The notes beneath the pieces are model-generated. The model had not been told where the DNA came from and did not search any database. It saw nothing but the letters and a program-made list of their open reading frames with translations. A stretch of 64,000 bases of DNA, taken from Desulfobacteraceae bacterium (GTDB lineage: Bacteria; Desulfobacterota; Desulfobacteria; Desulfobacterales; SURF-7). Position numbers and translations under genes: made by a program. The DNA lies in the NCBI GenBank assembly GCA_003599865.1, contig QZKS01000028.1, forward strand, positions 1 to 64,000. The letters run 5' to 3'. This document shows positions 26,550 through 27,673 of the stretch, piece after piece; position 1 is the stretch's first letter; each line of letters begins with the position of its first letter.

Positions 26550-26786
26550 ATGAACCAAAATCCGGACCGGCCCCCCAAAATACTGCTGGATCTTCAAAAG
26601 CTGAATGAATTGAATTCGATGGGTTATGCCGGAAAATTCTGTCTGGGCGATACGGTCGTAATTGCCTGCGGCGGACCCAGCGGCTGCCCGAAATATATCC
26701 TGGAACGGGATGCGATATATGATAAGAAAACAAATACGTATTGGAAACGGGATGAATACGAAGGAGGGACGAGGACAATTTCATGA
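26550..26786 (+). CDS. Hypothetical protein, 78 aa
   Basis: RBS ggaggtccc; ATGA overlap with the next ORF. Confidence 0.6.
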   Translation: MNQNPDRPPKILLDLQKLNELNSMGYAGKFCLGDTVVIACGGPSGCPKYILERDAIYDKKTNTYWKRDEYEGGTRTIS

Positions 26787-27673
26787 TCACAATCATAAAC
26801 TGGGTAAGAGAGATTGAAAATCTTGCACATGATGTATATCTCCGATCTGCGGAATTCTTCCGGGATGATGAAAAATTATCCGCTTTTCTGAATCATATCG
26901 CAGAAGATGAGGCGTGGCATTATCATGTCATGTCCAGCGCGTTGGAATACTGCAGGAACAGGCCTGTCGGCGTTCCCGAAATCGCTCCTGCCGTCACGAT
27001 CGACAGTGAAACGGATGACGGAATAAAGTCTGCCTTCCGGCAGATATCCGACAAGCTCTCGGCAGAGACACTCACGAAAGAGTTTCTGATCAACCAGATT
27101 CTGCTGACCGAATACTCGGAATGGAACGACATGTTTCAGTACGTTGTCAATACCTTGAAAAAAACCAAACGGGAGTTCCTGTACGCCGCTACGAGAATAC
27201 AGAATCACAAAAAATTCATTGAAGTTTTTCTCGAAAACATCCCCCATATGAATGGTGCTGCCGCCAATTTCAAAACGCTTCCCTCAATCTGGGAGGAAAA
27301 AATCCTCATTATCGAAGATGACGAAAGTTTAGCGCAACTGATCCAGGCCATCCTGGAAAAAGAGGGGAAAATCGACATTGCGTCAAATGGTGCGGAAGGC
27401 CTGCAAAAAATCAAGGAGAACTATTACAAACTGATCATCTCCGATTTTGATATGCCCGAAATGGATGGAATCGTCTGTTACACCCATGCAGCGGAAAGGT
27501 ACCCGAATATCCATGAACGGTTTCTGTTTTTTACGGGAAACCTGTCACCGGAAATCCGGTCTTTTCTGAATCAGAACCATCTGACATTCCTGAAAAAACC
27601 GGAACACATCAAAAAGATCCGGGAGCATGCCCTTCAAATCCTCCTGAAGCCGGATCGGAAAATGATCATCTGA
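26783..27673 (+). CDS. Ferritin-like (rubrerythrin-type) domain fused to response-regulator receiver domain
   Basis: N-terminus EIENLAHDVYLRSAEFF..AEDEAWHYHVM (E, ExxH) and ILLTEYSEWNDMF..; C-terminus ILIIEDDESLAQLIQAIL..LIISDFDMPEMDGI..FFTG..FLKKP. Confidence 0.8.
   Translation: MITIINWVREIENLAHDVYLRSAEFFRDDEKLSAFLNHIAEDEAWHYHVMSSALEYCRNRPVGVPEIAPAVTIDSETDDGIKSAFRQISDKLSAETLTKEFLINQILLTEYSEWNDMFQYVVNTLKKTKREFLYAATRIQNHKKFIEVFLENIPHMNGAAANFKTLPSIWEEKILIIEDDESLAQLIQAILEKEGKIDIASNGAEGLQKIKENYYKLIISDFDMPEMDGIVCYTHAAERYPNIHERFLFFTGNLSPEIRSFLNQNHLTFLKKPEHIKKIREHALQILLKPDRKMII

Follow-up and report, generated by a model that had tools for sequence, protein, structure and literature searches.

The window, meaning the whole 64,000-nucleotide stretch of DNA analyzed here, comes from a sulfate-reducer-type bacterium and encodes a protein in which a predicted ferritin-superfamily domain of the diiron type precedes a canonical response regulator receiver (REC) domain. 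This assignment is supported by ligand conservation, fold searches, and Pfam. The protein, here termed ND-REC for its N-terminal domain (N-domain) and REC, belongs to a conserved, apparently undescribed family that reaches at least six bacterial phyla and may link the chemistry of oxygen or peroxide to signaling by phosphorylation. We give a probability of roughly one half to the reading that ND-REC is a stand-alone response regulator, whose diiron (or related dinuclear) ferritin-like input for O2, peroxide, or redox state is coupled directly to a phosphorylatable REC.

Gene and domain layout

The gene runs from an ATG at 26783 to a stop codon ending at 27673, and its start codon shares the sequence ATGA with the stop of the preceding 78-aa gene. 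The product of 296 aa is the reading frame given in the preliminary description, and all motifs quoted there, including REIENLAHDVYL, LLTEYSEWNDMF, and RIQNHKKFIEVF, were found in its translation. The gene is present once in its own genome. The protein consists of an N-terminal helical domain (residues ~1-151) and a C-terminal REC (residues 171-288), with the following features:

26783..27673, plus strand: gene of the ND-REC protein, including stop codon (open reading frame; Pfam REC; 73-member family)
26783..27235, plus strand: N-terminal helical domain, predicted to be of the ferritin superfamily, residues 1-151 (AlphaFold2 and PDB fold matches)
26816..26839, plus strand: helix A motif E12-xx-A15-xxx-Y19 with predicted Fe ligand E12 (E12 and Y19 in 45/45 sequences)
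26909..26920, plus strand: helix B ExxH with predicted Fe ligands E43 and H46 (44/45 each)
27110..27127, plus strand: helix C motif E110-x-S-E113-W-N115 with predicted Fe ligands E110 and E113 (all 45/45)
27197..27208, plus strand: helix D I139-x-x-H142 with predicted ligand H142 (45/45) and a hydrophobic residue at 139
27272..27295, plus strand: short linker with conserved P167 (33/45) and W170 (41/45)
27293..27646, plus strand: REC receiver domain, residues 171-288, with E178/D179, D221, T251, and K272 (Pfam PF00072; fold matches of the CheY/RR468 type)

The receiver and its phosphorylation residues had been recognized correctly. Residues 174-282 match PF00072 with an E-value of 1.6e-14 and 54.4 bits (gathering cut-off 30.2), and the site is complete, with the acidic residues E178/D179/D180, the phospho-acceptor D221 in SDFDMPEMDG, T251, and K272. 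In the alignment of 45 family sequences, D221 is found in 42, T or S at position 251 in 43, and K272 in all. When the full-length model was used as the query, all listed fold matches were to REC domains. The reported lack of a DNA-binding output also holds: REC is the sole Pfam domain recognized, and searches of Pfam and NCBIfam revealed no output domain that would bind DNA or act as an enzyme. For the N-terminus, no family of either collection passed the cut-off.

Fold of the N-terminal domain

The N-terminal part had been described as a rubrerythrin- or ferritin-like bundle of four helices. The AlphaFold2 model of the N-domain (pLDDT 94.9, pTM 0.89) is indeed a helical bundle, apparently of the ferritin superfamily, but it has five long helices instead of four (residues 2-25, 30-58, 75-93, 99-126 with a break at 111-112, and 131-151), with the extra helix 75-93 lying between helices B and C. 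All of the top 50 fold matches in the PDB belong to the ferritin superfamily (ferritins, bacterioferritins, nigerythrin, and rubrerythrin). Their Foldseek probabilities are mostly >0.9, yet TM-scores are 0.3-0.55, rmsd values 8-18 Å, and E-values >0.05. Because superposition onto PDB structures is poor, the helix arrangement of the N-domain differs from known structures.

Profile searches link the N-domain to the same superfamily. Rubrerythrin and ferritin chains in the PDB were matched over helices A-B (2fzf, E 3e-6), and stand-alone ferritin-like proteins, which retain E, ExxH, and ExxE, were matched across helices A-C with E-values down to 4e-10. A profile of the C-D half did not detect rubrerythrins, and hhalign found no significant match between the N-domain and rubrerythrin; the equivalence of helices C and D is thus at motif level only. 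The REC-free stand-alone proteins (L077-L085), where scanned, have no Pfam family above cut-off and are a possible sister family.

Predicted metal site

Ligand conservation was assessed in the alignment of 45 sequences, in a family whose N-domains share a mean identity of only ~30%. Nine N-domain residues are invariant (E12, Y19, E110, S112, E113, W114, N115, F118, and H142), and the ExxH residues E43 and H46 are missing only from L035. The putative ligands fall in the motifs quoted earlier, E12 in REIENLAHDVYL, E43 and H46 in AEDEAWHYHVM, E110 and E113 in LLTEYSEWNDMF, and H142 in RIQNHKKFIEVF, and they lie near mid-helix of A, B, C, and D, respectively, in the secondary structure of the model. 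Judged from this secondary structure, they are also about equally far from the turns A-B and C-D, which a dinuclear site in an antiparallel bundle would require. In sequences this divergent, an invariant E/ExxH/ExxE/H set would be difficult to account for if no metal were bound, and the N-domain probably holds two iron atoms.

The closest known relatives of this predicted site are those of rubrerythrin and sulerythrin (PF02915), which resemble ND-REC in its predicted ferritin-superfamily bundle and, by motif, in ExxAxxxY in helix A, ExxH in B, ExxE in C, and a His in D. The rubrerythrin of the same genome (L086) reads GESQARNRY, ANQEKEH, GEHHEWTDMY, and AEKQHEKRY in helices A-D, and ND-REC reads IENLAHDVY, AEDEAWH, TEYSEWNDMF, and RIQNHKKFI. 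In this motif-level comparison six of the seven iron ligands correspond. The seventh in rubrerythrin is a bridging Glu, the one in ExxH on helix D (EKQH in L086), whereas the ND-REC family has a hydrophobic residue in its place: position 139 is I in 28, M in 7, V in 5, and L in 4 sequences (44/45), and F in L033. The rubrerythrin-like site proposed in the preliminary description therefore stands in its conserved ligand motifs but, with the bridging Glu absent, is not a plain rubrerythrin site. ND-REC further differs in the extra B-C helix and in lacking a C-terminal rubredoxin domain, the position of which is taken by REC. The window protein does not match PF02915, and weak matches occur in 16 of 44 members (best E 7e-5).

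Removal of the bridging Glu has been studied in sulerythrin, where the E126A variant opened coordination sites on both irons and stabilized a cis-mu-1,2-(hydro)peroxo ligand (PMC12851003). By analogy, the ND-REC family seems to have a naturally occurring counterpart of this site, which would suit a sensor better than a turnover enzyme, and its natural loss of the bridging carboxylate offers a comparison for the engineered sulerythrin variants.

Distribution and age of the fusion

Within the window's order, Desulfobacterales, 9 of 194 genomes carry a homolog fused to REC, and the full reading frames of these homologs have the same two-domain layout. A scan of GTDB-species genomes yielded 46 loci in Desulfobacterota-type bacteria, MAGs labeled "Deltaproteobacteria" and Myxococcales, Nitrospirota, Spirochaetota, Holophagaceae (Acidobacteriota), and Verrucomicrobiota. 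A profile search of 396 genomes across the window's phylum found clear members (E <1e-10) in 20, some with two to four copies. Pooling gave 73 distinct proteins with N-domain and REC, the majority of them from sulfate reducers and further "Deltaproteobacteria". Because these relatives share both domains, a chance reading frame is excluded. The fusion had been regarded as an unusual architecture, and the domain-architecture search shows that it is not common (20/396 genomes of the phylum); it is, however, no peculiarity of a single genome but defines a conserved family that spans several phyla. No relatives were found on viral contigs and no matches on plasmids.

All N-domain matches with E <1e-10 from intact genes are fused to REC; one further copy (L046) is frameshifted and keeps REC in its second half. 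Distances among N-domains correlate with those among the attached RECs (Mantel r 0.58, permutation maximum 0.25). Both observations, drawn from sequence comparison, are consistent with one old fusion. Phyla are mixed in places on the family tree, and since branches are long and labels MAG-based, no transfer is claimed. Three genomes (G384, G466, and G557; L092-L099, L107, and L108) contain three to four paralogs each, some of which have lost ligands or REC residues, and this looks like lineage-specific expansion and divergence.

Joint loss of putative metal ligands and receiver residues

Both sites are kept in 57 of the 73 proteins, only REC residues are lost in nine, only ligands in two, and both in five. 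The two kinds of loss, of ligands and of residues for REC phosphorylation, are thus associated (Fisher p 0.002, or 0.025 with sister copies merged), a test that is weakened by shared ancestry. Together with the short linker and its conserved Trp (41/45), the joint loss suggests that the N-domain is coupled to REC. Of the 66 proteins that keep the predicted metal site, nine have a degenerate REC, so that not every family member needs phosphorylation. The related paralogs L095, L097, and L099 keep E43, E110, and H142 and have lost E12, H46, and E113. In L008/L035 (Olavius algarvensis associated Delta 3), the ExxH ligands and the REC phosphorylation residues are both lost, and msrAB adjoins the gene.

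Gene neighborhood

The surroundings of ND-REC genes vary and are mostly unconserved. No conserved operon partner was found across the loci inspected, and histidine kinases are close by at only a minority of them. Within its own genome the best other match of REC is only 31% identical, so that no cognate paralog points to a partner kinase. The neighbors recognized by eye or BLAST are redox-repair genes (msrA, tpx, thioredoxin, and rubrerythrin) and not iron uptake genes. In the window, tpx lies 180 bp downstream of ND-REC, and msrA is located within 1.5 kb of the locus in four lineages (the window, L035, L042/L049/L111, and L101), compared with an expectation of ~0.04 for 60 loci, based on 54 msrA copies in 57 genomes. 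Since the link was noticed before it was tested, and two of these lineages may be related by descent, it is treated as suggestive, hinting at a redox role of ND-REC.

The 78-aa gene at 26550-26786, a homolog of which lies near L015, was considered as a partner and rejected, because it occurs in 65 of the 194 order genomes compared with nine that have ND-REC. Its product contains a GDTVVIACGG-type motif and belongs to no Pfam or NCBIfam family. MsrA matches in eight genomes (G016, G033, G037, G040, G051, G053, G056, and G008) contain one in-frame TGA each and are possibly selenocysteine-containing MsrA proteins.

Proposed function

If ND-REC is a diiron-input response regulator, the N-domain would fold as a ferritin-superfamily bundle, as predicted by the model, and would bind two irons through E12, E43, H46, E110, E113, and H142, as their invariance and motif equivalence suggest. 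Because a hydrophobic residue replaces the bridging Glu of helix D, coordination positions could be open, and by analogy a diiron-(hydro)peroxo or hydroxo state could be stabilized rather than turned over. The oxidation state may then reach REC via the short Trp-containing linker and alter its phosphorylation by, or its binding to, histidine kinases encoded elsewhere. In a chain that has no dedicated output domain, whether DNA-binding or enzymatic, the output would consist of contacts with other proteins, as for CheY and CheV. A more specific form of this mechanism, proposed by analogy and tentatively, is that ND-REC proteins constitute a distinct signaling class, in which the bridge-deficient diiron site forms a stable peroxo adduct that switches the phosphorylation or partner binding of the attached receiver. 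If true, a single chain would provide an O2 or peroxide input to two-component signaling in anaerobes.

Alternatively, the direction of control might be reversed, and the ferritin-like domain would be the output, i.e., a diiron module of the peroxidase or oxidase type whose activity or interactions are switched by REC phosphorylation. Catalysis would equally explain the conserved ligands, peroxide reduction is an activity of rubrerythrin-type proteins, msrA and tpx lie nearby, and REC occupies the place held by rubredoxin in rubrerythrin. However, the chain has neither rubredoxin nor another electron donor, and none of the aligned members has the Glu that serves as bridge in the peroxidase site. 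The domain order also argues against this model, since most response regulators have an N-terminal REC and the output after it. On balance, an enzymatic output appears somewhat unlikely.

The two remaining explanations concern the metal itself. The N-domain might sense the availability of Fe(II) or another metal (apo versus metal-loaded) instead of O2 or peroxide and report it via REC. The ligand set, which predicts metal binding, and the association between ligand loss and REC-site loss would agree with such a role, but the neighbors recognized are redox-repair rather than iron uptake genes, and we consider it unlikely. Less probable still is a purely structural or partner-binding helical domain, in which the ferritin-like residues are kept without metal binding. 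The poor fold superposition and the three paralogs that have lost only half of the ligands are in its favor; the exact E/ExxH/ExxE/H invariance among divergent sequences is difficult to reconcile with it.

Relation to known signaling systems

The diiron-input reading of ND-REC has precedents. ODP of Treponema denticola has a fold that differs from that of the ND-REC N-domain. It is likewise a diiron oxygen sensor for a phosphorelay, and according to the title of the paper cited for it, an iron-peroxy species is stabilized, but it is a separate protein that works with a receptor homolog and is not fused to REC (cited in PMC7666581). Bacteriohemerythrin sensors such as DcrH also use a diiron domain as O2 or redox sensor inside a signaling protein, but the DcrH-type site has five His, one Glu, and one Asp as ligands, and the domain is attached to chemoreceptors and other outputs, not to REC (PMC9388753). 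Hemerythrin-type sensors and ODP both exemplify diiron input to signaling, and a fusion of a ferritin-like domain with REC is not described in the passages of the two papers considered here. Nor was a ferritin-like or rubrerythrin fusion to a response regulator found in the open-access literature searched. In their REC half, ND-REC proteins resemble CheY- and CheV-type regulators, which have a canonical REC and no DNA-binding output; as in CheV, an input or scaffold domain precedes REC. In contrast, the N-domain of CheV is CheW and that of ND-REC is ferritin-like, and the ND-REC loci inspected are outside chemotaxis operons.

How oxygen or peroxide exposure is transmitted to two-component signaling in strict anaerobes such as sulfate reducers is only partly known. 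The ND-REC family would unite metal chemistry and a phospho-switch in one soluble chain of ~300 residues and is therefore directly testable. Desulfogranum marinum DSM 2058, a strain available in culture, carries one member (L013).
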